A DNA stretch of 64,000 nucleotides from Costus lasius (Eukaryota > Streptophyta > Magnoliopsida > Zingiberales > Costaceae). Shown here piece after piece: positions 25,971 through 62,497 of this stretch. The notes beneath the pieces are model-generated. The model saw nothing but the letters and a program-made list of their open reading frames with translations. It did no database searches and had not been told where the DNA came from. Position 1 is the first letter of the stretch. The number at the start of each line of letters is the position of its first letter. The stretch is taken from assembly GCA_027563935.2 (NCBI GenBank), contig CM050454.1:20395501-20459500 (forward strand). Direction: 5' to 3'. The position numbers were made by a program, and so were the translations under genes.

Positions 25971-26188
25971 CTAATGCCTTGTATTTTAGTAGTAATATTC
26001 ATAGCTATTTCATGCTAAATCTAGGCTTGTTTTGACACTTTTATACTCTTTATAGGCTTATTTCCTTGATATATTCGGAATCTTCACTTTTTGGTACTTT
26101 TATGGACTTTCAGGTAAAATCACCCTATTTTGACATCTTTTGAAGATTCTAAGGCCATAGGACGATTTCTTATATAAAGATGAAGCTA
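25971..26188 (+). repeat. Q 5' LTR, part 1
   Basis: AT-rich LTR start ending GATGAAGCTA; it rejoins 32628 once element P and one AGCTA copy are removed. It resembles the start of the Z LTR (54857 onward), including the CGGAATCTTCAC word. Its first bases (CTAATGCC) lack a clear TG, so the true LTR start is probably lost at the junction with U. Confidence 0.75.
26184..26188. repeat. Target-site duplication of P, left copy
   Basis: AGCTA precedes TGATAAGTG and is repeated at 32623-32627 after the right LTR. Confidence 0.9.
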
Positions 26189-27672
26189 TGATAAGTGATT
26201 TTTACACCATGTTTTTGCCTATGTTTTAGATCATATTTTGGGCTTATTTGTATGATTTTGTGTTACTATTAGTGTTTTATTCTTACTTTGCACAGAATCT
26301 TCACTTTTTCTGTTTTTATTGAAAATGTAGGTAAAAAGGCATAAAAATGATGGATTTTGAGGGTTTTGAAGTCAAAGCATGATTCCCGAGGAGATCACGA
26401 GCTCACACGTCCAATTTGAGGCAAAAACGGTGAAGAATGAGAGATTTTCGGCCTTGGCCATAATTGCGTATTCGGCCATGAAAGCGACGACGAACAGAGG
26501 ACGAAAATCGGCTAAGTTAAAAAGTTCACTGAAACTTTCACGGGTGAGGCCGTGAATCCATCACGGTCCGTGAAACTTTTTGTGTCTAAAAGCATTATAC
26601 ACCGAAAGAATTACGGCCTTGGCCGTAAACTCATCACGGGCCTTAAAAATGACCGCCCTTCGTGTTTCTCACTCGATTCGACTCCAAACTGAACTAAAAT
26701 TGAACCAAACTCTCTAGAAACCCTCCTAGACCGGTTCTATACTGATTAGACTATAAAAGGAAAGGTTTTGGAAGGATTTCGGGGGCTTCTCGGCATGAAA
26801 ACCTGAGGAGGTAGCGGCGACGGCGAGAATTGATTCTAGGGCAAAACGACGGTGAGAGATCATGCAAAGGAGAGGATTTGATGCTTCATCTTCATCACCA
26901 GATCAAGGGGAAGAGTTCTAATTACTTTCCTAGTGTCTCTTTGCTTTATTTTAGAGAGATTACATGTTTAATTCAACGATGAACATGCTGTTTGCTTTGA
27001 ACATGAACGTGTAAACCTTATCTTTGGGATTTGGGGATAGCCCGTTAACGATTTATGGATTAAATATATTGTTTTAAATCTTTTACGTGAATTATATAGA
27101 TTTGATTTGATTAGAATTGTGTTTATTCCGTAATTTACCCTGATCAAGTAATTTTACGTCTTAGATGTTGCGAGAAGGACCGGGAGGTGAAACGCAACGT
27201 CGGATCTATTCTTTTCAAACCTGTGAATCCGATCACGAGAGTAGTTCGGATTTGCTTGAAGGATTACCATGGTTTTTCATAGAACTTAAAGGATCTAACT
27301 ATGTTAACTGTCACGAGAGTAGGGAGTTAGCATAGTTAGATACCGGATTACGCTTCGGGAGGAGGTAATCTGTACCTTAGGAAAAATCCCTTTCAAAACT
27401 ATATTTTTCTATTGAAAGATTTATTTTTATTAAATTCATATTTGTCAACGTGGTAAAACCCCGAATCCTGAATTTATCCAAATCGATTTTTGCCAAAACC
27501 CTAAAAACACCTTTTTGTTTTCTTGCATTAGAAGTTTCCAAAACAAAAACCATCATTTGAATCGTCTAGATATAGATCAATCGTGTAATCGGTATTTGAT
27601 CGCCAGTTCCTCATTGGGAACGATAATCTTTTTATTACTTCGATAAATCTGTGAACTTGCGGATACTTATCA
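26189..27672 (+). repeat. 5' LTR of P
   Basis: 1484 bp from TGATAAGTG to GATACTTATCA. TATA-like ACTATAAAAGG lies near 26749-26760. Between 26440 and 26660 it carries several short palindromes of the CACGG..CCGTG and TACGG..CCGTA type, for example TTCACGGGTGAGGCCGTGAA at 26537-26556, whose near copy occurs inside the element at 29755-29774. Confidence 0.93.
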
Positions 27673-27678
27673 AGTTTT

Positions 27679-27698
27679 TGGCACCGTTGCCGGGGATC
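27679..27698 (+). other. Primer-binding site of P (tRNA-Asp)
   Basis: TGGCACCGTTGCCGGGGATC, complementary to the 3' end of plant tRNA-Asp(GUC) apart from one base. It follows the LTR end after AGTTTT. This primer type is characteristic of Athila elements. The next 200 bp (to about 27870) are low-complexity T-rich sequence. Confidence 0.88.
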
Positions 27699-27926
27699 AG
27701 GCCAGTCAATATTGATGTAATCGTGAGATTTATAGACTAGACATTTTTTTAAATTGTTTGTTTTTATTTTTATTTTTGTTTTTGTTTTTATTTTTGTTTT
27801 TAGTTTATTTGTTTTTGTTTTCATTTTTTTATTTTTATTTATTTTTCACATTTTTTTTATATAGGTAGTTTTTTTTTTCTCTTTTTGGATTAACACGTTA
27901 TATGTGCAGGAGAACTGAAAAATCAC

Positions 27927-29417: not shown

Positions 29418-31138
29418 ATCCACCCGTTTAACTGGATATATTTGGTGGACACACTCTTGAGGAGAAGGAAAAGTAGAAGATTATATGCTCTCTACTATGA
29501 CACAGATTCACCAACTCCATCATGACATGAAGCTTTGGTCAAGCTAATGACCTTAAACAAGCGCTTTTTGAGAGGCAACCCAAACTTCTGATTTTTATTA
29601 CTCTTAGTTTCAGTTTTTGATTTTCTTTATATTTTAATAAATTTTTGCAGCATGATTTGATGAATTTTTATTGATGAAAAATTTTAATAAGTTGTTTTTG
29701 CTTGTAGGAATTTTTGGAAAATTTTTACTTGGAGGAAAAGTGTTCAACGAGATGTTCACGGGTGCAGCCGTGAAACAATTATAAACCGTGATGACGACAT
29801 TTTCTTTGTGAGTATGGTTAATATGAATTTGATTGTGAAACATGATGGTATTTAATGTTTGAAACTTGTTTACATTATAAAACATGATTATCTTTAATGT
29901 GATATAGTTTCTAAATCTTTTTGGTTCATGTTTTCATATTTTGATATAATTGCATAGGGAATCATAATATATTTTAAAAGGAACTCTTGAAAAATTTTTC
30001 TGAAATATGTCATTCATTGATTTTAATGTTTATGTATATGCAACAACTTAAGTCTAGGGTGTCCTTCATATATTTTGCTTTTTCATCAAAGCTTTATAAA
30101 TATGTATTTTGAATGTTTATGATTGTTAAGGATGATCAAATTTGTTTTACCCTTGATTTTGGACTTAGGAAACATTTTGAGTGATTGATTTGATAACTTA
30201 GGGAATTTTTGAAATTTCATGTAGACTTAAATTGTTAAGTAAATTCAATTCTGGTATTGATAAAATACATATGTGAATTGTTATATGTTCAAACGACACG
30301 TGCATAGTATCTTTATACTTGAAGTTTAATTTATCTATTTTTTTTTGCTTGATGGAAATTTTTATGAATAGAAATTTGGTGATTTATCTTTTTAAAATGA
30401 GATTTGCTCCAACTCCTCTAGTTGAGAAATCTAAAGTCATGAGTTATATTATAACACGAGTTGGTATACTTTAAATCTGTTACGATCAAGTATCAACAAC
30501 GATTTAAGTACCATGCCACTGACCGGCTTTCTCCAGAAAAAGAAAAAGAAAAAAAAGGACAAAGACTCCTCTACTTGGCACTGATAAATTTGACAGTGGT
30601 ACCTAAGACATGAGTTGAAGTCTAATAATAATAAAAAAAAGAGGATGAAAATGGAGAAAAAGAGAAAGCTGTAGGCCATGTGGACAACTCCACTGACTTT
30701 CATGATTGAGACTATGAGTTAAATTATACTACTTTGTAGTATACTTTAAACATGTAATGATGCTAACAGTAAATAGCATATAACAGTTTAAAGACCAAAT
30801 TGCTTTAAAAATCTCTTATCTTTAACATCACTGAAATTCTTGAAGTAGAAATTTTATATGTTAAGTGAAATGGATGAAAGTATTTGATGCTTAGTGTGTG
30901 TTAAATGGATGTTATGACATGAATTGTAAATTTTATCTTTCTTGGATTGTAACCTCTTGGGAATTTATTTCTATTATGATTTTTCTTGAATTACTTGAGT
31001 TTGAAATATCAATTGCTTAATTTGTAAACTGAGGATATTAATAGGGGCAAAAACAATTGAAAAATCCTTATCTTTACATTCTTTATAAATATCAAGGTAT
31101 TGCTTGAGGACAAGCAAAATTCTAAGTCTAGGGTTATT
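29418..31138 (+). other. P 3' non-coding region with conserved hairpins
   Basis: Starts with the post-pol block AGCGCT..GAGAGGCAACCCAA (29560-29584), shared with Q, R and S. One palindrome follows, TTCACGGGTGCAGCCGTGAA, at 29755-29774. Near 30568-30618 is the CTCCTCTACTTGGCACT block shared with R and S. Close to the 3' LTR, TTGCTTGAGGACAAGCAA (31100-31117) can form a 7-bp stem. No coding sequence is recognisable. Confidence 0.75.
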
Positions 31139-32622
31139 TCATAAGTGATTTTTACACCATGTTTTTGCCTATGTTTTAGATCATATTTTGGGCTTATTTG
31201 CATGATTTTGTGTTACTTTTAGTGTTTTATTCTTACTTTGCACAGAATCTTCACTTTTTCTGGTTTTATTAAAAATATAGATAAAAAGGCATAAAAATGA
31301 TGGATTTTGAGGGTTTTGAAGTCAAAGTATGATTCCCGAGGAGATCACGAGCTCACACGTCCAATTTGGGGCGAAAACGGTGAAGAATGAGAGATTTACG
31401 ACCTTGGCCGTAATTGCGTATTCGGCCGTGAAAGCGACGACGAACAGAGGACGAAAATCGGCTAAGTTAAAAAGTTCACCGAAACTTTCACGGGTGAGGC
31501 CGTGAATCCATCACGGTCCGTGAAACTTTCTGTGACTAAAAGCATCATACACCGAAATAATTACGGCCTTAGCCGTAAACTCATCACGGGCCGTAAAAAT
31601 GTCCGCCCTTCGTGTTTCTCACTCGATTCGACTCCAAACTGAACCAAAATTGAACCAAACTCTCCAGAAACCTTCCTAGACCGGTTCTATACTGATTAGA
31701 CTATAAAAGGAAAGGTTTTGGAAGGATTTTGGGGGCTTCTCGGCACGAAAACGTGAGGAGGTAGCGGCGACGGCGAGAATTGATTCTAGGGCAAAACGAC
31801 GGCGAGAGATCACGCAAAGGAGAGGATTTGATGCTTCATCTTCATCACCAGATCAAGGGGAAGAGTTCTAATTACTTTCCTAGTGTCTCTTTGCTTTGTT
31901 TTAGAGATATTACATGTTTAATTCATCGATGAACATGCTGTTTGCTTTGAACATAAACATGTAAACCCTATCTTTGGGATTTGGGGATAGCCCGTTGATG
32001 ATTTATGGATTGAATATATTGTTTTAAATCTTTTACGTGAATTCTATAGATTTGATTTGATTAGAATTGTGTTTATTCCATAATTTACCCTGATCAAGTA
32101 ATTTTACGTCTTAGACGTTGCGAGAAGGACCGGGAGGTGAATCGCAACGTCGGATCTATTCTTTTCAAACCTGTGAATCCGATCACGAGAGTAGTTCGGA
32201 TTTGCTTGAAGGATTACCATGGTTTTTCATAGAACTTAAAGGGTCTAACTATGTTAACTGCCACGAGAGTAGGGAGTTAGCATAGTTAGATACCGGATTA
32301 CGCTTCGGGAGGAGGTAATCTGTACCTTAGGAAAAATCCCTTTCAAAACTATATTTTTCTATTCAAGGATTTATTTTTATTAAATTCATATTTGTCAACG
32401 TGGTGAAACCCCGAATCCTGAATTTATCCAAATTGATTTTTGCCAAAACCCTAAAAGCACCTTTTTGTTTTCATGCATTAGAAGTTTCCAAAACATAAAC
32501 TATCATTTGAATCATCTAGATATAGATCAATCGTGTAATCGGTACTTGACCGCCAGATCCTCGTTGGGAACGATAATTATTTTATTACTTCGATAAATCC
32601 ATGCACTTGCGGATACCTATCA
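31139..32622 (+). repeat. 3' LTR of P
   Basis: 1484 bp, same length as the 5' LTR. It begins TCATAAGTG (TG mutated to TC) and ends GATACCTATCA before the duplicated AGCTA. It keeps the same palindromes (31390-31610). Confidence 0.93.
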
Positions 32623-32627
32623 AGCTA
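32623..32627. repeat. Target-site duplication of P, right copy
   Basis: AGCTA, identical to 26184-26188. Confidence 0.9.
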
Positions 32628-33870
32628 CACGTCAAATTTGGGCCAAAACGGAGTTAGCCTGAAAAATACAGGGGGTTTACCAGTTTCTTCGCCAGACCAG
32701 CAGAACCTCACAGTGAGCTTCACGAATGGGTTCACCAGATTTCTTTCAAGCCGAGAACTTCACAGAGCAAAGCACAGCCTGCGGGGTTCACCGCGCTTCT
32801 TTAAGCCAGATTTCACAGAACAAATCGCCAGGTGAACCCGATGGGGTTCACCCGTGATTCCAACCCAGACTCGCGGAGACCGAGTTCCACTCGGATTTTT
32901 AGTGATTTCTCACTCGTTTGACATCCAAATTTGGCAAGTGAGGACTCTATGGAAAGCTCTTTCAAAGGAGAATGCAAAGGATATAAAAACCCTAATTTTC
33001 TTGCCCTAATTATTGAGCAATCACATGACAAAGTGGCGGGGGCAGAAGAACTAGGCGACAACACGAGTTCGGGGCGATTTTTCGAGATCTGATCGTCGGA
33101 ACGCTTCGATTCTTCAGGATTTGTTTTGGTTTATCTTCTCCTATCCTTTAGAAACTCTTCCTTGTGATCTTCCTATGTTAAAAGAGAGATTTTTAAGTGT
33201 TTCAATGACGATTGTAGCGTAAACCCTATTTTGGGGCTTGGTTGAAACCCGTTGACGAATTTAATCGCAAACTTTATCTTTATTCTGTTATTTGGATTAT
33301 GTTGTGAGCATATTTTTCTTTAAAGTGTTTATTTCATGATTTTACCTTGGCCGAGTACTTTCACGTGTTAGCCATTACGATGCATATCGAGAGAAGAATC
33401 GTAAGGGTGGAATCCCTTAGTAAAACTTGCGAGACTCCACACGAGAGTGCTTAGTTTTTGCTCGAGGGTTTTATAATCTGCCATAGAACTCATTGGGTTT
33501 ATCTTAGAACGATCCACCGCGAGAATAGGAGGTTGATCTAAGTCGAACACCGGGGTGTACACTTGAGAGAGGGCACCTTGTACCTTAGGGTTAGATTCCT
33601 TGTGCAAAATCAATAATCCAAATAACCGACATCTGTCTTGTTCGATTAAAGTAGTCATCGTGGTGGAAACCAAAGCCCTAATTTCTCTCTCATATTTAAT
33701 CCCTGCAGTCGTAGCGTTGATTGCTTGTTTTCGATTTCTACTTTCAAAACCCAATTTCGATTCGCCTAGTTATTAGGACTCGGATTTTCTGGTACTCAAC
33801 CTTGTTCCCTATGAGATTCGACATCTTTTATATTACTTCGACATAACCGTGCACTTGCGGGACGTGTCCA
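32628..33870 (+). repeat. Q 5' LTR, part 2
   Basis: Continues from 26188 (GAAGCTA|CACGTCAAATTTGGGCC) to the LTR end CGTGTCCA. With part 1 the LTR is about 1.46 kb. It carries GGTTCACC-type palindromes (32690-32860), notably GGTGAACCC..GGGGTTCACC at 32831-32852, the same word as the array in the Q interior. Confidence 0.85.
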
Positions 33871-34020: not shown

Positions 34021-35860
34021 TTGACTGATCATTTTATGCAAAGAAATTCTAGGGCAGGTACATTCTTTGACATTGATCCTGAAATCGAGCTCACCTTCTG
34101 GACAAGAAGGAAGCAAAATCAAATTCTGAAGAAAGAAGTCATGAACCATCCAGAAGGAGAAAATCATATGGAGCACATTCAGCTTGATGCGAACAATGAC
34201 CGAGTACCACAACCAATGGGGAACAACTATAACAACAAGACATTGAAAGATTATTCTGCTCCCTATGCTTATGGTTTTCAATCAGGAATTTCTAGGCCCG
34301 CTGTTGAGGCCAATAACTTCGAAATAAAACCTGCTCTTCTTTCTATGGTGCAATAAAATCAATTTGGTGGTTCTCCTCTTGAGGACCCCAACATGCACCT
34401 CTCTATTTTTCTCTAATATTGCGATATGTTGAAAATTAACGGTGTGTCTGCTGATGCTATCAGGTTGTGACTATTTCCCTTCTCTTTGAGGGACAGAGCG
34501 AGAGCTTGGCTGCATACACTACCTTCTACTTTAATAAGAACATGGGCAGAGCTTTCTCAAGCCTTTCTCTCCAAGTACTTTCCTTCATCAAAGACAATTC
34601 AATTGTGAAATCAGATAACGAGTTTCATGCAAAAAGATGGAGAATCTCTATACGAAGCTTGTGTCCACATCACGGAGTTGAGACTTGGGTTTTAATCCAA
34701 ACGTTCTATAGCGGTTTGGATTAGAACACAAGACTTATAGTGGACGCTGCAGCAGGAGGCGCTTTGATGAATAGGAGAGTTGAAGATGCAATGAACCTTC
34801 TCGAGGACATGGCGATTAACCATCACCAATAGACATCTGAGAGAGGTACTTCTACCAAGAAGTCAGGTAAGTATGACCTTGACTCTTTGATTGCACTAAC
34901 AGCTAAGGTGGATAATTTGACTAGAAAGCTTGACTCTTGGTTTGTTAATTCGATGGATATTAACTCTATTTCTTGTGAGGTCTGTGGAGTTGTAGGTCAT
35001 GTAGGGGCAGATTGTTAGGCAGGAGATGGACAGATAGGTGCGATCAACTATGAGCAATTGAATGCTGTTGGAAATTTCAACTCTAACAACAACCCTTATT
35101 CCAACTTCTAAATCCAGGATGGCGCAACCACCCAAATTTCTCTTACCGGACAACTCAACCAATTCAACCTGAACAAGTTCCACTACAGCAAACCCAGCCC
35201 CCACAAGGAAACTTCAGGCAGCCCCAATAGAACAATTTCAGACCGCCAGGATTTCAAGCTAGGAACTACAATGTACCACCACCACAGCCAAGGCCCAATA
35301 ATGATTCAAATTTTAGCAAGCAACTTGAATGACTTACAAACATGATGAAGATGATGATGACAAGGATGGACTCCTTGGAAACACACAATAAAATGCTAGA
35401 GAGTCAGCTAGCCCAGCAAGCTAGCTCATTTTTCAGAACGCCCGGCAAGCTTCCATCCCAACCAGAGGTGAACCCGAGGGAGCATTGCAATGCAATCTCC
35501 ACTTGGAGCGGATGCAACACCGGTGGCACTTGAACCAGCTGAAGAGGAGCGGCCCTACATGGGACCGCCTGCATATAAGCAATCGATCCCTTTTCCACAG
35601 AGGCTTGTCAAATCCAAATTGGACAAGTAGTTCGGTAAGTTTTTGGAAGTATTGAAAAAACTTTATATTAACATTCCCTTTGTTGATGCCCTTTCACATA
35701 TGCCAACCTATGCGAAGTTCCTGAAGGACATCCTCTCAAATAAAAGGAAGCTGGAAGACCAAGGAACCATCACACTTACTGAGGAGTGCAGTGCAATTTT
35801 GCAAAATAAGCTTCCACAGAAACTCAATGGCCCTGGCAGCTTTTCCATACTATGCTAGAT
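34021..35860 (+). pseudogene. gag and pre-protease region of gypsy element Q
   Basis: Collinear with R gag (43615 leftward). It reads KTLKDYSAPYAYGFQ, NNFEIKPALLSMVQ, LFPFSLRDRA, then KYFPSSKT in shifted frames, a degenerate CEVCGVVGHVGADC knuckle near 34975-35015, and IPFPQRLVKSKLDK..FGKFLEVLKK (35590-35660) leading to the protease. Stops at MVQ|NQF (34354) and later points, with several frameshifts, show decay. Many stops sit where R has Gln, Trp or Arg, which fits C-to-T change. Confidence 0.8.
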
Positions 35861-35867
35861 AGGAGAG

Positions 35868-36656
35868 ATGACCTTCCAGAGAGCACTGTGCGATCTAGGA
35901 GCGAGTGTCAGCATTATGCCGTTATCACTGTGTAGAAAGCTGGAGTTGGGTGACTTGAAATCGACTAATATCTCTTTGCAGCTTGCCGATAGATCAGTTC
36001 GGAGTCCAGTGGGTATTTTAGAGGATGTACCCATTAAAGTAGGAGATTATTTTATTCCTGCCGACTCTGTTGTGTTAGAGATTGACGATGATGATAGACT
36101 TCCTATTATCTTAGGAAGACCTTTTCTTGCTACAGCTGGTACTGTCATCGATGTTAAAAATGGGAAACTGGATTTAAACATCGGTGGTAGTGTTATCGAA
36201 TTTGATCTAACTGACACCCTGAAAAACCCTTCTCTTGCAGGTACATGCTGTAGAGTGGACATGGTGGAGGAGGCCACACAGAATGTTGAACCCTACAGAA
36301 GAGAAATGGAACCATTGGGACCCACCCTGACAAATCCCACTAAAAATGCCAAGAGCTACAAAGCACGCACCAAGTTTTGGCATGACAAACACATAGCAAA
36401 GAAGGAATTTCATGAGGGAGAAAAAGTACTTCTATTTAATTCAAGACTTCGGCTATTTCCAGGAAAGCTTCGCACGAGGTGGTCCGGTCCTTTTACAGCT
36501 CAGAAGGTTCAACCATATGGTGCCATCACAATTTGGATAGAACGAACTAGAATTTTCACAGTTAACGGGCACCGCCTCAAGCACTATTTCGAAGATGAGA
36601 GGGTCGAAAGAGAGGAAGTTCTTGCTCTCTCAGACCCCACAACTTTGCAACTCTGA
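35868..36656 (+). CDS. Q protease fused in frame to integrase C-terminus
   Basis: A clean 262-residue frame. Residues 1-125 are the Athila-type aspartic protease region: CDLGASVSIMPLSLCRKL carries the DLGAS form of the active site, and LPIILGRPFLATAGTVID is the flap-to-C-terminal motif. After the EFDLTDTLKNPS block it jumps, near residue 150, to the integrase C-terminus ([45 protein letters not shown]), ending like R pol. RT, RNase H and the catalytic core of integrase are missing without loss of frame. The Met at 35868 is only the first in-frame Met after the stop at 35857; the family protein would start upstream. Whether it is translated is unknown. Confidence 0.85.
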   Translation: MTFQRALCDLGASVSIMPLSLCRKLELGDLKSTNISLQLADRSVRSPVGILEDVPIKVGDYFIPADSVVLEIDDDDRLPIILGRPFLATAGTVIDVKNGKLDLNIGGSVIEFDLTDTLKNPSLAGTCCRVDMVEEATQNVEPYRREMEPLGPTLTNPTKNAKSYKARTKFWHDKHIAKKEFHEGEKVLLFNSRLRLFPGKLRTRWSGPFTAQKVQPYGAITIWIERTRIFTVNGHRLKHYFEDERVEREEVLALSDPTTLQL

Positions 36657-36894: not shown

Positions 36895-37215
36895 CAAATC
36901 ACGGCCAGGTGAACCCCATGGGGTTCACCCATGAAGTGCACTGTATAGCGCGCCTAGACCTTGTGACCAGAGCGTTTCACAGGCAGGTGAACCCCACGGG
37001 GTTCACCAGTATTTATTTCTGCGCAAAAACCTTCTAGTATACTTCACAGGCAGGTGAACCCCACGGGGTTCACCATCTTCTCTGCACTTGAAGGAAGCCA
37101 CCAGAACACTTCACAGGCTAGTGAACCCCAGCGGGTTCACCCATGCTTCCGTTGCAACAACCCGACCCCAGAATACTTCACGGTCAAGTGAACCCGGGCG
37201 GGTTCACTGGAATTT
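36895..37215 (+). repeat. Palindrome array of Q, five units
   Basis: Five palindromes GGTGAACCC..GGGTTCACC at 36908, 36986, 37053, 37120 and 37187. The last three intervals are each exactly 67 bp and the first is 78 bp. Most units are preceded by CTTCACAGGC. The arms pair over about 10 bp with a 2-bp centre that varies (AT, AC, AG, GG). The DNA between units is not conserved. The array lies between the pol end and the start of the next ORF at 37526. Confidence 0.9.
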
Positions 37216-37579: not shown

Positions 37580-38700
37580 GCACTCACCATTTAACACATA
37601 AGGCTCAAACTTTGCTTGTCCTCAAGCAAAAATCAAAATTTGAAATCAAAGTTTGATAAAAAGAATAACCTTTTCATGCTCATTAAAATTTTAAAATACA
37701 ACTTGTCAATGAAAAATTCTATCAATTGATTTACAAAATTTCAAGTAAACATATCATCCTCAGAACTCAATTTTCTAGATTCACAACTCAATCAAATAAA
37801 ACTTTGCAACCGTATGATAAATAGAATTTTTAATCTCATGATTTCACCCGGTATCAATTTAAATCTATCAATGCTTTTGTTTACAGGAATTAGGTCTCCA
37901 AGATCTTTTTCCACACAATTTTTTTTTATGCATTTTGTTTGTTTTTGTATAGATGACATGTATCCACAAAGACACATACTTTTTATTTTCGACTTCAACT
38001 CTTTCTTCGGTACCATTGTCAATTTTACACAGTGCCAAGTAGAGGAGTCTTATTCTTTTTCTCCCTCATTATTTTTCATGTTTAGATTTCAACCCATGTC
38101 TTAGGTACCACTATCAATTTTACATAGTGCCAAGTAGGGGAGTCTCTCACTATTTTTTTTTTTTTTGGATCTTGGATTCTTATTTCCCAACAAATAGCAA
38201 AAATAGACTAAACCTCAACTAGGTTGATCAATTGATCTAAATTCACAAATCATACTAATATACTCATTTTATTCAAAAGAGAAGTTTCACCTTTAAATTT
38301 TATTCCTCAAATAATATATCTATCTAAAATTTTATGCATCAATCAATGTCATGTCTCAATAGACAAATAAGTATTGAAGAAATAAATTTAACATGACAGG
38401 ACTATATCTTCAAAAAAAAAAAACAATAGGATCATACCACAAGATGGTAGAGAATGGATCGTATGCATCCAATTCTTTTTCAAAAGATCGAGGAAAATAG
38501 AATGCAAAGTAGTATGGAAAGTGATGCTCACAAAATTTAATTTTTCGCCACCGTTGGATTCAACTTTCTTCATAACTCCCTCTTTATTCCATTCTCCTAA
38601 AAAAAGGAAATTTTAATTCTAAAAACAACTAAAATATAAGTGATTAAACTAAGCAAGAGTGCTTGGGTTGCCTTCCAAGAAGCGCTAGTTTAAAAGGTCA
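37580..38700 (-). other. 3' non-coding region of gypsy element R
   Basis: Read on the minus strand it follows R pol: the post-pol hairpin (38662-38686), two copies of the CTACTTGGCACT..AAATTGA block (around 38025-38065 and 38105-38150), then a TTGCTTGAGGACAAGCAA hairpin (37611-37630) and GAGCCTTATGT. In S this text runs directly into the 3' LTR, but here it breaks off at about 37590. The R 3' LTR is therefore missing. Unlike S and Q, this region has no palindrome array. Confidence 0.75.
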
Positions 38701-40008
38701 TTAGCTTGACCGTTCGACACTCGGATTTGATCGTGGCTCATCAATGTAAAAACTTTCCTTTTCCCCAATCTGCTCTTCCTGATAATAATGCTTCAATCTT
38801 TGACCATTAACTTTGAATTCTCCCATTTCTTTGCTCCATACGTCTACAGCTCCGTAGGGATAGGCTTTCTTTACTTGAAAAGGACCAGACCATCGAGACT
38901 TAAGCTTTCCTGGAAAAAGTCTCAATCTAGAATTGAATAATAGAACAAAGTCACCTGGTTGGAAGTCTTTTCTGAAAATCTGTCGATCATGCCATCTCTT
39001 AATCCTCTCTTTGTAGACTCTTGCATTCTCATATGCAGAGAGTCTGATCTCATCTAGCTCATTTAATTGCAACCTCCGTTTCTCACCCGCATTTTTCAAG
39101 TCAAAATTTAGCTTCTTGATCGCCCAATACGCCTTATGTTCGAGCTCTACAGGTAGGTGACATGACTTTCCATAAATTAATTGAAATGGGGACATACCTA
39201 TTGGTGTTTTGAAAGCAGTTCGGTAAGCCCACAAAGCATTGTCGAGTTTGGACGCCCAATCTTTTCTATTGCGCGACACTATCTTTTCTAAAATTCCATT
39301 GATCTCTCTGTTTGATATTTCAACTTGTCCACTTGTTTGGGAGTGATATGGCATTGAAACTCTATGATTTACCCCATATTTTCTGAGTAGGGCTAAAAAC
39401 TTATGTTCTATGAAATGCGAGCCTCCATCACTGATCACTACTCGGGGTGTCCCATATCGTGGAAAAATAATCTTCTTAAACAGTTTTAATAACAACTCTC
39501 GAATCATTGGTTGGTGAAGCAATAGCTTCAACCCATTTTGAGACATAATCAACTGCTACAAGAATGTACTTGTTACCTCCAGAAGATGGGAAAGGTCCCA
39601 TGAAGTCAATCCCCCAAACATCAAATATCTCAACTTCAAGAATATTGGACAGTGGCATCTCATGTCTTCTGTTAATGTTCCCAGTCTTTTGACATCTATC
39701 ACAATATGATACAAAGTTTCTAGCATCTTTGAAAATTGTGGGCCAATAAAAAGCTGATGTAGCACCTTAAAAGCAGTTTTTTTAGTACCGGCATGACCAC
39801 CATAGGAGGATCCATGGCATTGAAGCAAAATATCTGCAATTTCTTCTTTAGGTACACATCTTCTAAAAATGCCATCAGCACATCTTCTAAACACATAAAG
39901 CTCATCCCAAAAATAGTGTTTCACCTCAACCAAAAATCTTTTCCTTTTTTGGTAGCTCAAATCAGGAGGAAAAATATTTGCTACAAGATAATTCACTATG
40001 TCAGCATA
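38701..40008 (-). pseudogene. Integrase of gypsy element R
   Basis: Three overlapping open pieces in different frames (39996-39556, 39658-39476, 39552-38701). They cover the zinc region (CHGSSYGGHAGTKKT), the core ([30 protein letters not shown], giving the D, D, E residues) and the C-terminus ([36 protein letters not shown]). Two frameshifts, near 39650 and 39530, disrupt it. The text is typical of Athila/Tat-type integrase. Confidence 0.9.
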
Positions 40009-41381
40009 CTAGGGTGCTTTGAGTTGTTCAATGGTTAAGAGCTGTTCTTTAGGGAAAGAATCATTGATTTCATCATTCTTTTCAGTGTCTGCCATTATTC
40101 TTGAGAGATGATCTACAATAAGGTTTTCTGATCCTTTTTTGTCTTTAATCTCCAAATCAAATTCTTGCAGAAGTAAAATCCATCTGAGTAATCGTGGTTT
40201 GCTATCTTTTTTCTGCATTAAGTATTTCACAGCTGCATGGTCAGTGTACACTACCACTTTGGAGTTAATCAAGTAAGACCTAAATTTATCAAAAGCAAAT
40301 ACTATGGCCAATAATTCCTTCTCAGTGGTGGTGTAATTTCTTTGAGCCTCATCCAAAGTTTTGCTGGCGTAGTGAATAACATGAGGTTTCTTATCTTTTC
40401 TTTGTCCCAAGACTGCTCCTACTGCATAATCGCTGGCATCACACATGAGCTCAAAGGGTAAGTCCCAATCTAGGGGTTGCATGATCGGTGCTGATATCAA
40501 GGCCTTCTTTAGTTCCTGAAAAGCACACAGACATTTCTCATCAAAGAAGAATTTGGCATCTTTACAAAGTAAATCAGTTAAAGGTTTAGCAAGTTTAGAG
40601 AAGTCCCTAACGAATCTCCTGTAAAACCCTGCATGTCCTAGGAAGCTTCTAATTTCTTTAACAGTGGTGGGTGGTGCCAACTTCTCAATCACTTCTATTT
40701 TGGCCTTGTCCACTTCAATCCCTCTCTCTGAAACTAGATGGCCCAAAACTATCCCCTGTCTAACCATAAAGTGGCATTTTTCCTAATTCAAGACAAGGTT
40801 AGTCTCTTCGCATCTCTGCAAAACTCTAGAGAGATTAGCTAAGCAGTCATCAAAAGAAGAACCATAAACCGAAAAATCATCCATAAAGACATCCATGAAG
40901 TCTTCAATAAATTCAGAAAAAATTGCCATCATACACCTCTGAAAAGTAGCAGGTGCATTGCATAAACCAAAGGGCATTCTTCTATAAGCAAAGGTACCAT
41001 ATGGGCATGTAAAAGTGGTCTTATCTTGATCATTAGGATGAATAGGAATCTGAAAAAATCCGGAATACCCATCGAGGAAACAAAAGTATGAGTGTTTAGC
41101 TAGTCTCTCAACCATTTGATCAATAAAGGGTAGGAGAAAATGATCCTTCCTAGTGGTCGTATTTAATTTTCTATAATCGATACACATACGCCAACTAGTG
41201 ACAGTTCTAACAGGTATTAATTCGTTGTCCTTATTTTTCATTACAATGACACCCCCCTTCTTTGGAACAAGTGTACAGGACTCACCCACTTACTATCTGA
41301 GATAGGGTAGATAATACCTGCATCTAGCAATTTTAGTACTTCCTTCTTCACCACTTCCTTCATAGATGGGTTGAGCCTTCT
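40009..41381 (-). pseudogene. RT and RNase H of gypsy element R
   Basis: RT motifs in order: KEVLKLLDAGIIYP, WVSPV, WRMCIDYRKLN, LDGYSGFFQIPI, MPFGLCNAPATFQRCM and FMDDFSVYG (the FMDD form usual in Athila). Then [12 protein letters not shown] and the RNase H part ([39 protein letters not shown]). The frame stops at 40783 (LN*EKCH, where relatives have Trp) and at 40009 (AP*YADI, also Trp). Both are TGG to TAG. A frameshift lies near 41285. Apart from these few lesions it is well preserved. Confidence 0.92.
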
Positions 41382-43615: not shown

Positions 43616-43753
43616 TAGAAATGAATGTCCTGTGCACACTAGAGCAAACTGATCAAATGATGTAAGTAAACAGAAAAGAATAAAAAGATAAAACATAAAT
43701 GAAACCTAGTCTAGCAATACTCTCAATGTCTTTAATATCGACAAAAACTAAGG

Positions 43754-43771: not shown

Positions 43772-43777
43772 AAAACT

Positions 43778-45726: not shown

Positions 45727-45863
45727 GGTCTCTCTGTATTCCTCTCGTCAGAAGCTCCTCTTTTGCTTCTTATGGAACCCCACAAAAACCTCTGGATCAT
45801 TCGCAATCATCTCCACAAGAATCGGGCGTGGACATTGACCTGGGCGTCGCGTTCAAAACCTGT

Positions 45864-46235: not shown

Positions 46236-46491
46236 CTCTCTTGCTCTGATTTGCGTGAAATTTCTTGGGTGATCTCCTCTTGATGATGGTAATCCTTCTA
46301 TGTATTTGATTCTGCTTAAAAACTCCTTAAAATAATGCCTTTTTATCTGAAAACCATGAAAAACCAAAACAGAAGTAGATTTTGTAATATTCAATGAATT
46401 TAGCATGGAAACAAGTGAAAGATTCTCAATTTTAGCATGAAAAGATATCAAAAAATGATGCAAAATATACTACATATTTTGGTGTCATCAT

Positions 46492-46944: not shown

Positions 46945-46970
46945 AGCGCTTCTTGGGAGGCAACCCAAGC
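46945..46970 (+). other. Conserved post-pol hairpin of S
   Basis: AGCGCTTCTTGGGAGGCAACCC, with TTGGG/CCCAA arms, preceded by GGTCAAGCTAATGACC (itself a GGTCA..TGACC palindrome at 46921-46936). Same block as in P, Q and R. Confidence 0.7.
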
Positions 46971-47057
46971 TTTCTAACCTTTATTTATTTTTTATTTTAT
47001 TTTAAGTTTTGCTTAAACTAACTTTTCTTTTATTTTTGTAGGTGAAACAAGGTTTGG

Positions 47058-47535
47058 TGCAAATTACGGCACTGCCGTAATGTATATTAAGGCACCGTAA
47101 TTTTCGTCCGCTTTCGACCAGAGAGTTGCGACGAAATTACAGTACTGCCCTAAACATTAACACGGTACCGTATTTTGTGTCAAAAATTTTCCCGAGAGCA
47201 TTGTTGATTTTATGGCACCACCGTATGATTTTACACGGGCCATATTTTCATGAGATTTTCTGACGAGAATTTTTGAAATTTACCCCGAAATTACGGTAGT
47301 ACCGTAAATTATTTTACGGGCGTAATTTTTAAGTTTTGATTTAAAAAAAAAATCGCTTGTTGATATTACGGCGGTACCGTAAACTTTTACACGGTACCGT
47401 TTTTGAGTAGAGAACTATCGTGATTTTATGGCGGTACCATAATCTGTTTCACGGTACCATATTTTCGAGCAAATTTTCACCTGAGAGATTCCTAATTTTT
47501 ACGGCACTGCCGTAAGATATTACACTGCCGTATTT
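47058..47535 (+). repeat. TACGG..CCGTA palindrome array of S, about seven units
   Basis: Units near 47062, 47134, 47208, 47290, 47363, 47424 and 47499, about 60-80 bp apart. Most are double: a TTACGG(N3-6)CCGTAA palindrome, about 8-12 bp, then an ACACGG(T/G)ACCGTA-type word. The sequence between is diverged. Position is the same as the Q array: after the post-pol hairpin, before the next ORF. The motif matches the X LTR of this element, not that of Q. Confidence 0.9.
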
Positions 47536-48055
47536 CTGTTCCTGGAACGCGATTCCTGAGCTATTTTTAGGGTTTTCCGGGCCGTATTTTAGGGTTTCAC
47601 GCTCGTTCTCACTCGTTCTCGCGCCGACTTCGCACCTCCGACCTTCTTCGACCACCAGAGCATGCCGGCGACTCTTCCGGTGAAGTTCCGACCGTCGATT
47701 GGGTACTCTTTTCACCGATTTCTCCACTTTGGTGAGTTTACATGATTTTCGCCCTTTCACTTGTTCTTCCTCGTTTCTTAGTCGTTTTGAGAGATTTTTA
47801 TTTCCAAATGCTTCTTAGAGGATAGGCGACGATTCCTAGTTCAATTCTAGAATTTTTGGAATGATTCATGGAGCGTATTGAGCAAGATTGAGCTCACACG
47901 AAAGTTTTCCACTCTGTTTCGATTTTGAAACGAATTTTCCAGAGATGATTGCTATGATTTAACTGATATTATCTGTAAATATTGCTTAGAATGAAAGATT
48001 ATATGATTGTATTGCTATATGGTGCATTGAATTTATAGTTTGTAGCTTGTTTGAG

Positions 48056-50623: not shown

Positions 50624-52554
50624 TGATGACACCAAAATATATAGTATATTTTGTATCATTTTATATACATTTTCATACTAAATTGAAGCTCTTTTGCCTT
50701 TTTTATGCCAAATTTATCATATATTGCAAAATCTACTTCTATTTTGGTTTTTGATAATTTTCAGGTAAAAAGGCACTATTTTTAACCGTTTTCGAGCAAA
50801 ATCAAATACATGGAACAATTCCAATCATCAAGAGGAGATTACATGGCAAATTTCATGCAAATCGAGGTAACAAACCAAAATACGGTAGGGCCGTAATCTA
50901 TATTATGGTACTGTATTTTCGTACGATACCGTAATATTAGAGCACCTATCATAATTTTGGGGAGTTTTCACCAAAATGTTTTCTGGATTTTACGGCACTA
51001 CCGTAAGAAATTACACGGCCGTAATTTGGAGCGCTTTCAGACCAGAGAGATTCACTGAAATTACGGCACTACACGGGGCGTATTTTCCAAACGTTCCGGA
51101 CTAGAATGTTCAGCAGATTTTACGGCACCGCCGTGAAGCATTTTATGGTGCCTTATTTTGTGAAGATCTCAAACAAGAACACTTGACCGATTTTACGGCA
51201 GTGCCGTAACATATTACACTGCCGTAATTTCCTTCCAGAACGCGACTTCCACAGTCCAATTCGAAGCTCAATTTTTGCGGAGAAGATTGCGTATAATCCA
51301 GACCTTAAAACTCGAAGCCGTAAGAAGAAGAAGAGGAGCTTTTGCGAATAGGAAGAGGAAGACAGTAAAAGCCCCAATTTTCATCCACAATACAGACAGA
51401 AATTGAGATTTCAGCCGCCGCCTAGGGTTTCACCGCTGCGACACACACAGTACATCTCTGGCCGTGAAATTTGATGGGAAGCTACGCCTGGGGTAAGAAA
51501 ACATACCCCAGAAGTTTTAGAGGGAAAGGAGATCAATTGGAGAAGAAATTAACGAAAAGGGAGGTGCCGCTACTGTTCATCGACGCTCAACTCAAAATTA
51601 TGGCTGTAATTTATATTACAGCCGTAGTGTATTTTCTAAAACCCTCTTCTCCCTTTGATTTTCGATCTTTTGAAACCATGGATTATTGTAACTCCTCCAC
51701 TATGCTAGCTTAAACCTTTATGGGACATGGGGGAGTAATTCCCTTTGATTTTCTCAATGACTAGATACTTTTTACTTTCATCATGATAGTTCTATTTTGA
51801 TGATTCTACCTATGCGATTATGGCTCTAAAATTCTCCTTAGTTTATTTATTGTCATGCATGATATAGAGTTTTCGCAATATAGACTAAAAAGTGATTTGC
51901 TTGAGAACTTGGAACCCTAAAATTGAATAATAGGAACTCACCGTAAGAAATTAGGTTAAGTTCTTATTTCTTGATTTTAGTAATTTTATTGCCATGTTTG
52001 ATAATTATGAACCTAGGATTGAGTTATTGTGTCAAACGTGGAGATCTTGCACGAAAGTGAGGATCAGAACATTGGAGAACCATAGGTAGAACGTGTATTG
52101 AAACTCGGATGCGCGAAAGTGATCCTTGAGATTCCACTCGAGATGATCAACTTAGAATTCGGATGCATGAAAGTGATCCTTGAATTCTTCATTTAGTGAT
52201 TTACTTATTTACAGCGTTGGGATAAATCTTGTGTGAAAGCAAAGATTAGTCCCTGCATGGTTGTCTGCACGAAAGGGAGATAATCCACTTATGAAGTAAA
52301 TTATGTCTTCATCATTGTAAAACTGGATTGATGAACATCTATTTTTATCTAGTCATGAAAATTAAAGTGGATGAAACCCTAGTCCCAGTTTCTCTGTGAT
52401 TATACTCTCCCGTTTGTTTTTCGATCATTGCTTGACTTCTATTCGATTGCCTAGATAGTAAGAAATCAATTATTCGGTACTTGATAACTTAGGTCTCTGT
52501 GGGTTCGATATCTATTTTATTACTTCGAGTATCCGTGCACTTGCAGAAATAACA
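50624..52554 (+). repeat. X-family LTR (X2), 3' LTR of S
   Basis: 1931 bp from TGATGACACC to AATAACA, directly after the S 3' hairpin. A palindrome array lies at 50880-51240 (units near 50989, 51058, 51118 and 51192, TTTTACGGCAC..CCGTAA type). The GGATGCGCGAAAGTGATCC pair is at 52107-52175. Confidence 0.88.
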
Positions 52555-52659
52555 ACAAGCTTGGTGACACAACAAGTCTTTGGAGCCGTGTCGGGGGGTG
52601 ACAAGTCCCCATATGCCAAACAACGAGTTTTTGGCCGCGACACCTTAGATAAGTTTTAG
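52555..52659 (+). other. Primer-site-like sequence after X2
   Basis: ACAAGCTTGGTG then AACAAGTCTTTGGAGCCGTG with TCGGGG resembles two damaged tRNA-Asp primer sites in a row. It implies that internal sequence once followed this LTR. The rest, to about 52660, is unassigned. Confidence 0.5.
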
Positions 52660-54856: not shown

Positions 54857-56268
54857 TATAATGACATGCATTTATATAGTATTTTTATTATGCTTTTACT
54901 ATAAAATATCTCTCTTTTCTATCATTTTTTTATTCATTTTAGCTTAAAATCTTCTATTTGTTCGGAATCTTCACCCTTGTTCATTTTTATTATATTTTAG
55001 GGGAAAATAACTAAATTTTGATGGATTTTGAAAGATCTGAGCACACGAATAGATTCCAGATGTCGAAAATAAGTCACCCGCCAAATTTCATGTGAATTGG
55101 AGCTAGTTTGAAAATTACACCCTAACCGTGATTTTTATCACGGTCGTAATTTCTACTGCTTCGTTTTCTATTCATAGAAGGCCTTAACGATCATATTTTT
55201 TCAAGAAATTTGGAGGAAAGCTGCACCTTAGGGAGGAGACAACAGAAACTAAATTTCATAGCAAAAGGGGTTCAAACGAGGGAGAAATCGCAAAAGGCGT
55301 TGCCAGAATTTGTTCTCTCACCGAGAGGTGTAGAGGGCATCACAGGCGACGAAACTTCGTGGAAAATTTCGCCCAAGGGAGGAGAGGATGCATGCAAAAT
55401 TTCAGTACAAAAGGAGTTCTGGATTGGGAGAAATCAATGAAAAACCGAATGTGCTACAGTAACCTTCGTGCGGAGCCAACAACACTTCATAGAAAGAATT
55501 ACGGCAGGGGTGTGATTATTTTCATGGCTGTGATTTCATGAAAATTTTCCATAGAAAGAATTTCGGCTTGCCCGTGATTATTTTCACGGCCGTAATTTCT
55601 ACATATAATTTTTATCACGGCCATAATTTGTGTCCAGAATGCACAAAAAGAATCACGGCCCTGCCCGTGATTATTTTCACGGCCGTGATTTTGTCAGCTA
55701 GTTTTGGTTTTAACCTCGTTTCTTGCCCGATTTGGCTCATTTTCTAGCCAAATTTTGGGAAAACCCTAATTAGATGATGGAGAACTATATAATCTACCAA
55801 TTGAGTGATTATTGGGGGGATTTTGGCAAGGATTTAACGCGAAATCAACAAAGGGGCGAAATCTAGAGCTACTGACGGTGGAAGGCATTTCTTCATCGGA
55901 AAAACTCTATTTTTTTGGCCGATTAGCATCAACCTTCACGAGGGAGCCTCACACTTCATCCTTCTTATTGTTTTTATTATTATTTTACCAATTTTGTAAT
56001 CAAAATATGGATTTTACAGCGTGAACATGAACATTATGCTACCATAACTTCTTCTTCAAGACTAGGGTGTAACTTAGTTAAAATTACATAAAATTGATTA
56101 CAACCCAATAGTGTTTTACTTTTTCTGCAACTTAGTTAAAATTAAATCCAACTCTTTTCAAGCTTATCTAGCTAACAATCCTAAGATAAAGTTAGTACTT
56201 GGCCTTTGGTCTATGTGGGATCAATATTTTTATTACTTCGATGTATCCGTGCACTTGCGGACACATCA
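54857..56268 (+). repeat. LTR of gypsy element Z
   Basis: About 1.4 kb ending GACACATCA before a tRNA-Asp primer site. The start near TATAATGAC is not a clean TG, so the left boundary is uncertain. Its first part matches the Q LTR start (GGAATCTTCACC). Probable TATA region near 55785-55800. Confidence 0.8.
55125..55690 (+). repeat. CACGG/CCGTG palindromes in the Z LTR
   Basis: Units near 55128, 55497, 55557, 55612 and 55652. The best read ATCACGGCC..GCCCGTGATTATTTTCACGGCCGTGATTT, so each is a pair of palindromic halves joined by GTGATTATTTTCACGG. The Z motif has GTGATT where X has CCGTAA. Confidence 0.8.
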
Positions 56269-56274
56269 AGTTTT

Positions 56275-59632: not shown

Positions 59633-59671
59633 GAGGGCTGAGGGCTTGTGTTGTTTTTTAGTTCGGTTGTA

Positions 59672-59676: not shown

Positions 59677-60030
59677 TGATGACACCGAAATATGTGGTAT
59701 ATTTTGCATCATTTTAGATACCTTTTCATGCTAAATCGAGGATCTTTTTACTTATTTTTATGCTAAATCCATAAAATGTTGCAAAGTCTACTTCTATTTT
59801 GGTTTTTCATGTTTTTCAGGTAAAAAGGCACTATTTTAGGCGTTTTCAAGCAAAGTCAAATACATGGAAGAGTTCTCATCAACAAGAAGAAGTCACCCAA
59901 GAAATTCACGTAAATCGGAGCAAGTCGGCAAATTTCGGTAGTGCCGTAATCTATTTTACGGTACCGTAAAATTCGAACACTGCCGTAATTTGTAAAGATT
60001 TCTGAACAGAAAGATTTCCTGATTTTATGG
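59677..60030 (+). repeat. X3, first 354 bp of an X LTR
   Basis: Matches the reverse complement of 61737-62108 with scattered differences (about 90% or more by eye), including the palindromes TTACGG..CCGTAA near 59940-59990. It stops inside the array at GATTTTATGG. Confidence 0.88.
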
Positions 60031-60314
60031 TCTGGCATGCGTGTACCTTGGACTAATCCCCGGCAATGGCGCCAAAAACTTGATAGCCCGAAAGGGAACA
60101 CTACAAGTCTGGCACGCGTGTACCTTGGACTAATCCCCGGCAACGGTGCCAAAAACTTGATAGCCCGAAAGGGAACACTACAAGTCTGGCACACGTGTAC
60201 CTTGGACTAATCCCCGGCAACTGCGCCAAAAACTTATTAGCCCGGGAGGGAATCACTACAAGTTTGGCATGCATGTACCTTGGACTAATCCTTGGTAACG
60301 GCACCAAACCTTGA
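60031..60314 (-). repeat. Four tandem 77-bp primer-site units
   Basis: Unit starts (TCTGGCA-type) at 60031, 60108, 60185 and 60263. Primer-site copies on the minus strand lie near 60057-60074, 60134-60151, 60211-60228 and 60290-60307. The first three each differ from the exact tRNA-Asp complement by one base, at different positions; the fourth (TGGTGCCGTTACCAAGGA) has more changes and abuts the LTR. Confidence 0.92.
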
Positions 60315-62108
60315 TGTTAAACCGCAATACGGGTATACGAAGTAATAAAGAAAAGTATCGAATCCACAGGGACCTACATTGTCGAATACTAAATAGTCGA
60401 TTTCTTACTATCTTGGCAAATCGAGATCGTGAAAATAGCAATCGAAACTAAGAGCGGGATTATCAGAGAGAAAAGTTGGGACTAGGGTTTCGTTCACTTA
60501 AACTTTTATGACTAGATATGCATAAGGATTTCGTTGATTCAATTTTATCATGATGAAGATATTATCAAACGATGAACTCAAGGATCACTTTCGTGCATCC
60601 GAGTTCTAGGAATCTCTAGTGGAGTCTCAAGGATCACTTTCGTGCATCCGAGTCTCGCAATTAGTTTTGCTCAAGGGTCTCCAACGTTCCGATCTTTGCT
60701 TTCGCACAAGATCTCCACGTTTGACAAATAGACTCGATCTAAAGATTCATGTTATAATTATGACAATTATCTTACTAGAAAAGATCAAGATGGATCTAAC
60801 CTAAGGAAGGGATCCTAACATGCAGTTCTAGGGTTCCAAATTCTCAAGCAATCACCTTTCGGTCTCAAGCGAAAATTCTAAGAACATAATTAATAACATG
60901 AACTTGAGATTCTAAGCACAGTTAACGCATGAGCAAAATCATCATGTTAAGATCAAACTCAAAGAAATATTGAAAAAAAAGAAGTTATCTAATCATTGAA
61001 AGTCAAGTGAACTACTTCCCCATGTCCCAAAAATAGTTTAAGCTAGCATGGTGAAGAGATTACAGAATTCCATAATTTCAGAAAATTGAGATTCAACAAA
61101 AGAAAGAGTTCTCAGAAAATACGACACGGCTGTGAAATATCGGTGGCGATTCTTCTTTCTCTGATTTCTCCTCCAATTCGTCTCCTTTTGATCTGAAACT
61201 TTTGGCACATCCTCTCCTTCACCAGGCGCAACTTCGGTAGAAAGATCATGGCCGGAGATCGTCTAGATCGAGCGCGGCGGCGGAACCCTCAGCGGCGGCG
61301 TGGATTGAGATTTCTCCTTCTATAGTGCACGAAATTTAGGGCCTTTGGTCTCTCTGTAATCCTCTCATCAAAAGCTCCCCCTTTGCTTCTTACGGCTTTG
61401 AATATTAAGCCCTAGATCACCCGCAAGAATCTCCGCAAAAATCGGGCGTGGAAACTGACCGGGCGTAGCGTTCAAAACGGGTTTTACGGCAGTATAATTG
61501 TTTACGGCTGGTGCTGTAAAATCTCTTGAGTCTTCTGTACCGATGTTGTCTCGGAAAATATAGCCCATAAAATAGTTTACGGCCCGTGCCGTAATATCAG
61601 CTGAGCATTCTGGTTGGATTCGTCGGGAAAATACGGCCCATGTAATTCTTTACGGCGTGTGCCGTAATTTCAGGGCAACTTTCTATTCTGAAATGGCTGG
61701 AAAATACGGTACCGTAATATTGCTTATGGCCGGTACCGTAAAATCAGGAAATCTTTCTGTTCAAAAATCTTTACAAATTACGGCAGTGTTCGGATTTTAC
61801 GGTACCATGTGGAATTACGGTACCGTAAAATAGATTACGGTACTACCGTAATTTGCCGGCTTGCTCCGATTTGCGTGAAATTTCTTGGGTGATTTCTTCT
61901 TGTTGATGAGAACTCTTCCATGTATTTGATTTTTCTTGAAAACGCCTAAAATAGTGCCATTTTTCCTGAAAAATATGAAAAACCAAAATAAAAGTAGATT
62001 TTGCAACATTTGATGGATTTAGCATAAAAACAAGTAAAAAGATCCTTGATTTAGCATGAAAAGGTATCTAAAATGATGCAAAATATACTACATATTTCAG
62101 TGTCATCA
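60315..62108 (-). repeat. X4, complete X LTR
   Basis: 1794 bp from TGATGACACTG (62108) to GGTTTAACA (60315), shorter than X1, which has the extra 162-bp duplication. Palindrome array at 61484-61855, collinear with that of X1. The GGATGCACGAAAGTGATCC pair is at 60573-60651. Confidence 0.88.
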
Positions 62109-62113
62109 GTAGT
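62109..62113. repeat. Target-site duplication of the X composite, right
   Basis: GTAGT directly after GTCATCA, identical to 59672-59676. Confidence 0.85.
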
Positions 62114-62497
62114 CGCCTTCCCCGCGCAAGGCCTAGGTCCACTAGCTCCAAGGGACTCGCCTAGAGCTCCCTCGATCTTGTTTTCTGCATGTTTATCGCT
62201 TTCAATCAAAACACCCGGAGAACCCTCACCGGGCTCCGGGTCCTTTGCAAGAAATCTTATCTTCCGGTTCCGTGTCTTGGACTTGTGGATTGTCGCCATC
62301 GTAGCATCGTGAAGTTTCTCTGCGTGTTTGGGTGTTGCTCAAGAAACGTCCACTTGCTGTTCTCATCGGTTTTCTCGAGGCTTTCCCCGTCCGCGCACAT
62401 TTTATTCTCCCTCATCTCACGACCCTCTCTCGGTTTTAGCATCATCGTCTAGTTTTCCTAGAGTACGGAAATTAAGGCCCCTACATCCGCTGCGTCA
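62114..62497 (+). repeat. LTR of chromovirus T, right part
   Basis: Continuation of the T LTR after the composite, ending CCGCTGCGTCA four bases before a methionine-type primer site. No coding sequence. Confidence 0.7.

Follow-up and report, generated by a model that had tools for sequence, protein, structure and literature searches.

Palindrome arrays in the long terminal repeats and internal linkers of Athila-type Ty3/gypsy retrotransposons of Costus lasius, candidate activating modules common to two promoters

Nested elements and the places of their arrays

A single 64 kb window of Costus lasius DNA (contig CM050454.1 of assembly GCA_027563935.2, positions 20,395,501 to 20,459,500, forward strand), holding few elements, was analysed for arrays of short palindromes that lie in the long terminal repeats (LTRs) of several retrotransposons and, in some of them, also in the linker, the gap 3' of pol. 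All coordinates below are those of this window. Protein domains were searched with Pfam on 25 window pieces, and ATHILA-type open reading frames (ORFs) were searched by tblastn with ATHILA proteins. The whole window is made up of nested plant LTR retrotransposons stacked upon one another, with at least two Ty1/copia elements (RVT_2 in Pfam) in the left 26 kb and Ty3/gypsy elements of Athila type in the right part. No Pfam match to a chromodomain was found among the 25 pieces scanned and two left-hand elements are Ty1/copia, and the link to chromoviruses drawn in a preliminary description of the sequence is not upheld.

The leftmost array-bearing element, P, lies on the plus strand. Its 5' LTR (26188..27673, borders read by eye) has an array at 26537-26665 with units at 26539 and 26612 and a TATA-like box at about 26752; its linker (29755..29795), 3' of a stretch resembling the end of pol, has one full palindrome and a decayed second; and its 3' LTR (31137..32624, start approximate) bears the P-type array again, with units at 31397, 31489 and 31562. 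The two LTRs (26191-27674 and 31141-32624) are 95.8% identical, and no tblastn match to an ATHILA-type ORF was obtained in P. Because AGCTA was read by eye on both flanks of P, this element is inferred to have inserted into an LTR of element Q. The main part of the Q 5' LTR (32625..33870, plus strand), an LTR presumed to begin to the left of P, contains an array at 32690-32860 and a TATA-like box at about 32982. It is followed on the same strand by coding remnants (34231..36644) of gag, protease (below the Pfam curated cut-off) and the C-terminal part of integrase, recognised by tblastn and Pfam, and then by a linker array (36898..37208) of five units TCAC-N6-GTGA-N12-TCAC, the last three gaps of which are 67 nt, with TATAAG at about 37316. 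Only the first codons of the Q ATHILA-type ORF remain (ATG at 37526, MASKR at 37547, truncation at about 37592); the proteins P0001 and P0002 also start with MASKR.

Element A is on the minus strand. Its interior (37593..43705) encodes gag, protease, reverse transcriptase (RT), RNase H and integrase, with Pfam matches to Retrotrans_gag, protease and H2C2, RVT_1, RT_RNaseH and rve in Ty3 order, those to protease, H2C2 and rve being below the curated cut-off. The gag-protease-RT-RNase H-integrase order of Athila was found in A only, and A alone among the array-bearing elements has an RT. No ATHILA ORF was matched by tblastn in this interior, and no word array was found 3' of its pol. The A LTR (44500..46490) has an array of five units at 45860-46240, four with N6 and one with N5. 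What is left of the S element, on the plus strand, is a linker and an ATHILA ORF between a remnant of the protease and a 3' LTR designated X; its left part was lost at the A LTR. The linker (46970..47660) holds an array of seven units, all N5, at 47063-47535. The fragmented ATHILA-type ORF (PF03078; 48056..49301, ATG at 48056) was recognised by Pfam on two pieces (E 1e-6 and 3.7e-9) and is spanned by tblastn matches of P0001 and P0002. The leader between them has GTGAGT at 47732, after the array, and TTTGTAG at 48039, shortly 5' of the ATG, possibly an intron or splice acceptor. The X LTR (50624..52559) has an array at 50880-51227 of four compound units, all N5, and a TATA-like box at about 51292. 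In the remains of Q (34231-36644, by tblastn) and S (46494-46895), the elements with the ATHILA ORF or its start, no match to RT or RNase H was found, and A has gag-pol without an ATHILA ORF match; a division of labour between elements is possible.

Farther right, W, B and a fragment are LTRs or 5' ends. The W LTR (54860..56270, plus strand, start approximate) has palindromes at 55125-55692, a TATA-like box at about 55786 and a stretch resembling a primer binding site (PBS) after 56270, and the interior behind it is truncated at about 57305. An LTR fragment of A/B type (59677..60031, plus strand) is 89.6% identical to B and has one unit; the B LTR (60329..62108, minus strand) has five units at 61480-61860, four N6 and one N5. 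A further array, D (58500-59080, CACGGCC..GGCCGTG), lies outside the assigned elements, and a Ty1/copia LTR-like piece begins at 58433.

Array words, spacing and kinship

The words reported in the preliminary description were present where it had placed them. In Q, GTGAACC/GGTTCAC occurs in the LTR, as half-sites from about 32700 and as the palindrome GGTGAACCC-gatg-GGGTTCACC at 32831-32852, and in the interior as five palindromes at 36908-37208. In S, TACGG/CCGTA is found in sites of the TTACGG..CCGTAA type between 47063 and 47535 (three of them perfect, with arms of 8-9) and in X between 50880 and 51227. In P, TTCACGG-N6-CCGTGAA stands at 26537-26556 (5' LTR), 29755-29774 (interior) and 31487-31506 (3' LTR). 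The further claim that the word differs between families was found to hold for Q and to be overstated for the rest: the P LTR also bears an S-type word (TTACGGCC..GGCCGTAA at 26611), and the S word recurs in the LTRs of A and B. Separate forms ascribed there to elements Z and T were not confirmed; the LTRs recognised here besides those of P, Q and X, namely A, B and W, bear the YACGG/CCGTR unit.

Departure from chance was assessed using a ranking of clustered 6-mers over the 64 kb (at least two G/C, 600-nt windows, no word chosen beforehand), in which the six highest-ranked were array words (CACGGC 18; CCGTAA and ACGGCC 16 each; GTGAAC, GGTTCA and GAACCC 10 each), AGAAGA and AAGAAG also reaching 10 and 33 words reaching 7 or more. 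TTACGG was counted 10, 10, 16 and 14 times per 0.7 kb array region of S, X, A and B, respectively; neither it nor TCACGG occurred in the 5.0 kb A gag-pol or in the one 1.9 kb Ty1/copia LTR counted, which contained one TACGGC and one GTTCAC. Perfect palindromes (arm 7+, loop 0-8) were also compared with 100 dinucleotide shuffles per region. Most arrays exceeded the shuffles: Q linker, 5 against a mean of 0.18, X LTR, 3 against 0.31, A LTR, 5 against 0.52, and W LTR, 3 against 0.24 (each reached by 0/100 shuffles); S linker, 3 against 0.19, and P linker, 1 against 0.01 (1/100 each); B LTR, 3 against 0.38 (2/100); D, 2 against 0.27 (4/100); and P 5' LTR, 2 against 0.37 (6/100). The Q LTR taken alone did not depart significantly (1 against 0.38; 30/100). 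Since Ty1/copia element C (18 against 2.94; 0/100) and the window as a whole (77 against 19.6; 0/10) also exceed their shuffles, palindrome number alone was not retained as a sign of specificity. What is diagnostic of the arrays is the clustering of their words and the fixed spacing.

One compound unit, YACGG-N5/6-CCGTR-N7/8-YACGG-N0-2-CCGTR, is common to S, X, A, B, P, W and array D. When up to three mismatches are allowed and both strands are counted, the window yields 42 matches and each of 20 dinucleotide shuffles yields 0-3; of the 42, 34 lie in LTRs, LTR-derived sequence or linkers (30 sense, 4 antisense), 8 in D with the strands equal, and none elsewhere. Half-sites and covariation were counted on 31 units taken from these matches. 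The set excludes the four antisense matches, the LTR fragment, P 31397 and, from D, one unit with N3 and those on the other strand. The first half-site base was T in 22/28 half-sites of S, 13/16 of X and 19/20 each of A and B, and C in 10/16 of P (both LTRs), 6/8 of W and 10/12 of D. The families thus differ chiefly in this base, and P differs from S mostly by one base change per half-site. Q is the sole carrier of a different word, at an equally rigid spacing: GTGAACC-N6-GGTTCAC occurs six times in the Q arrays and nowhere else in the window at any spacing of 0-15, and TTCAC-N6-GTGAA four times in the Q arrays and nowhere else. Within arrays, 55 of the 60 cases of CGG-Nn-CCG (n up to 12) fall at n = 0-2 (26) or 5-6 (29), the other five at 9-12 and none at 3, 4, 7 or 8, whereas the 36 cases outside arrays are scattered across n = 0-12. 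N5 is the spacing of every unit in the S linker (7/7) and in the X LTR (4/4); of the 10 units in the A and B LTRs, 2 have it (Fisher p 0.002 and 0.015; the units are not independent). Array periods are about 73 nt in S, A, B and P and 67 nt in Q.

The S linker array and the LTR arrays are supported as related copies by their closing sequence. A variant final unit, TTAYACT(G/A)CCGTA, followed by GAACGC has four matches in the window: one closes the array in the S linker, and the other three close those in the LTRs X, A and B. The opening units of S (47060-47110) and X (50876-50925) match as well. S units match A and B units equally well, so it is the last unit alone that is telling. Of the two origins suggested earlier for matching words at two sites of one element, copying is accordingly supported for S and X as the event at their origin; co-evolution with a recognising factor was not demonstrated, and no such factor was found. 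Whether words are more alike within than between elements was examined by pairing word profiles in the three elements having both LTR and interior sites. Of the 6 pairings the true one scored highest (1.40, the other five 0.08-0.67), which with three elements gives p = 1/6 and leaves significance out of reach. The S linker profile scores higher with the A and B LTRs (0.73 and 0.78) than with X, the LTR of its own element (0.56), which speaks against matching at the level of the single element and assigns the word to a lineage.

Several other repeats were noted in the window. The palindrome TTGCTTG-N4-CAAGCAA stands about 20 nt 5' of the 3' LTR in P (31100-31117) and S (50585-50604), and in A at 37611-37630, before the end of the interior. 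Behind the A and B LTRs, the leader sequences contain 77-nt tandem units (43762-43959, 2.6 copies; 60030-60315, 3.7 copies) together with PBS-like stretches, and in A an LTR-derived duplicate is situated in between. The Ty1/copia element at 8163-17224 has LTR-like copies 99.3% identical over 1887 nt and a 1217-amino-acid open frame, and on both grounds is probably a young insertion; it also shows the excess of short palindromes over shuffles given above for the Ty1/copia element.

Promoter context and alternative explanations

On balance we lean towards reading the palindrome arrays as upstream activating modules by which Athila-type Ty3/gypsy elements would serve two promoters, that of the LTR and an internal one. 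In this view each array would be a series of sites, at fixed spacings, for a dimeric DNA-binding protein reading YACGG/CCGTR half-sites, or GGTTCAC in Q. One array would lie in the U3 region, 5' of the LTR promoter that produces the gag-pol RNA, and a related copy in the gap 3' of pol, 5' of a putative internal promoter that would drive the ATHILA-type ('env-like') ORF. The likeness of LTR and linker arrays would come from the copying of one to the other site and from the need for a single factor, of host or element origin, to recognise both. A LOB-domain protein was considered as the reader of CGG-CCG and was not adopted.

A TATA-like box was found within 160 nt 3' of 7/10 arrays, compared with 0.17 of random windows (p 3e-4, the two P LTRs being counted as one). 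The boxed arrays are those of the P, Q, W and X LTRs, the Q and P linkers, and D, the box of the last sitting in the adjoining Ty1/copia piece; the figures are 4/6 for LTR arrays alone (p 0.009) and 6/9 with D excluded (p 0.001). Multi-unit linker arrays precede the ATHILA ORF in S (seven units) and its start in Q (five units); of the other two among these four elements, A has neither array nor ORF match, and P has one palindrome with no ORF found.

Several points weigh against a promoter role. No TATA-like box lies within 200 nt of the A LTR, B LTR or S linker arrays. The TATA test was not blind, because the box pattern was chosen with the sequences already known, array ends were placed by hand and the box of D belongs to a neighbour. 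Multi-unit linker arrays occur in two elements only, and the single linker palindrome of P has no ATHILA ORF behind it. A spliced mRNA has been predicted for the expression of Athila env, according to PMC2829016, and an internal promoter would then be unneeded. The compound motif was framed on the same data in which it is counted, and the Fisher tests given here overstate significance because units within one array are not independent.

Arms were defined on one LTR out of X, A and B, and conservation was measured between the other two. In the three comparisons it was 85, 90 and 96% in the arms, against 65, 62 and 80%, respectively, in the remainder of the array (with strict arms, Fisher p 0.004 to 9e-7; with loose arms, 0.003 to 3e-5). 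A comparison of spacers between single units was discarded, free end gaps making it unreliable. Hairpins in RNA or single-stranded DNA that act in the transcript, in packaging, in export or as small-RNA triggers, seem to us unlikely. Sirevirus LTR palindromes have been tied to maize small RNAs (Bousios 2016, as cited in PMC10760457), the orientation of units outside D is mostly sense, and the outer pair of the first palindrome covaries across all families (T-A 22, C-G 6, T-G 3, C-A 0; Fisher p < 0.001). This covariation tracks lineages, T-A being that of S, X, A and B and C-G mostly that of P, W and D, and a symmetric protein site would fit it as well as a stem. Within S, X, A and B, however, the inner pair does not covary (C-G 8, T-G 7, C-A 4, T-A 2; Fisher p 0.85), and among 270 arm pairs at 45 sites G-U (6) does not exceed A-C (14), with 33 other mismatches. 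In the second palindrome of these families the outer pair is C-A in 8/21 units and the loop is 0-2 nt, and the sense strand is the better folder in only 3/8 arrays. Fixed spacing without arm covariation in the S/X/A/B lineage thus favours dimeric DNA-binding sites over RNA hairpins.

Copying and tandem slippage by themselves, with functionless arrays spreading between LTR and linker during reverse transcription, would account for the terminal unit and flank common to the S linker and the LTRs and for the regular periods; we consider this explanation improbable as well, since arms have changed less than spacers between the X, A and B LTRs, most arrays have a TATA-like box 3' of them, and their core and commonest spacing equal those of Sirevirus motifs. 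Copying may explain how the arrays arose, and their upkeep by a putative protein reading the half-sites is the better-supported reason for their persistence. That protein might be encoded by the element itself, perhaps by the ATHILA ORF, with the arrays as targets of VANC-like anti-silencing and with word and protein changing together. Non-coding motif arrays do differ between families here as in VANDAL (PMC5735166), and in S and Q the ORF comes after the array. We hold this to be quite improbable, because the A LTR carries an array although no ATHILA ORF was matched in A, and because Pfam gives no known DNA-binding domain in the ORF, its only matches being ATHILA and, below the cut-off, PF20167 'Putative plant transposon protein'. 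An AlphaFold model of P0001 was uninformative (mean predicted local distance difference test score, 35).

Relation to known systems and meaning

The statement in the preliminary description that no named system of this kind was known has to be withdrawn, since the RM boxes of Sireviruses (Ty1/copia) have the layout and the VANDAL/VANC and foamy virus Tas systems are akin to it. According to Bousios et al. 2010 (PMC2829016), RM boxes are palindromes with a CGG-CCG core and family-specific flanks, present in many copies in the upper LTR, 5' of TATA. In ENV-bearing Sireviruses they also occur in the linker before ENV (77/79 linker copies), with none in the four ENV-less elements described there. 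The motif is called Sirevirus-specific in that paper, in which an internal promoter for ENV was proposed, not shown. The Costus arrays are like RM boxes in layout, in the CGG-CCG core and in the commonest spacing, N5, which is that of 8/12 RM consensus words with CGG-CCG (N4 in 3/12; PMC2829016). Exact copies of the Sorghum and Inga RM cores are present at 51196 in X and, in S and B, at 47294 and 61838, which may be partly chance given the 15 CGG-N5-CCG sites in the arrays. CGG-CCG palindromes 5' of a TATA-like box are found in X and in the LTRs of P and W; in A and B the LTR palindromes lack the box, and the Q LTR has the box with another word. Unlike RM boxes, the palindromes here are paired at a fixed N7/8, N4 was not seen in the arrays, and the Q word lacks CGG. 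The system resembles RM boxes by layout and does not belong to the Sireviruses, because its bearer A is Ty3/gypsy by Ty3-type pol order and RVT_1. The array layout is therefore an extension of one already described in another retrotransposon group, and not wholly new. No description of such arrays in Athila was found among the open-licence papers listed, as judged by titles and abstract openings, and one may exist.

The VANDAL/VANC system of Arabidopsis likewise has family-specific motif arrays in non-coding DNA, which change with the protein of the family (PMC5735166, PMC10398659); it differs in being a DNA transposon system with YAGTATTAY in one orientation and not a palindrome array, and anti-silencing has been demonstrated for VANDAL. 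In foamy viruses a single factor, Tas, serves both the LTR promoter and an internal promoter (PMC8670036, PMC4929722, PMC7828637). The likeness lies in two promoters under one factor, the internal one being putative here: a candidate is the TATA-like box after the Q linker array, none being present after that of S. The difference is that foamy viruses are vertebrate viruses with the Tas transactivator, and no transactivator was found for the Costus arrays. We know of no palindrome arrays in foamy viruses. Diaspora of soybean, an env-less member of the Athila/Calypso lineage (PMC1142308), is like A in having gag-pol without an env-like ORF, and differs in that 'palindrom' occurs 0 times in the text of that paper. 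Retand elements carry family-specific tandem repeats between pol and the 3' LTR (PMC11963269). In IMG/VR, 49 stretches matched the S word and 15 matched the Q word; each had one palindromic site and no cluster, and these matches were taken as chance. In searches for relatives, the RNase H query gave none in viral or genome contigs, the ATHILA alignment gave none in viral contigs, and the ATHILA ORF piece had 2 homologues among 733 protein-database candidates.

A wider possibility, which we put forward tentatively and regard as rather doubtful, is that Athila-type Ty3/gypsy and Sirevirus Ty1/copia elements independently reached one control system, in which CGG-N5/6-CCG arrays before the promoters of the LTR and of an internal 'env' ORF would be read by one conserved plant factor, with family-specific flanks tuned at both sites together. 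Such geometry, if common to both superfamilies, would suggest that they rely on one factor of the host. For the puzzle of how plant retrotransposons express their env-like ORFs, a copied promoter module with rigid site geometry would offer a concrete motif for start-site mapping and for screens of plant factors.

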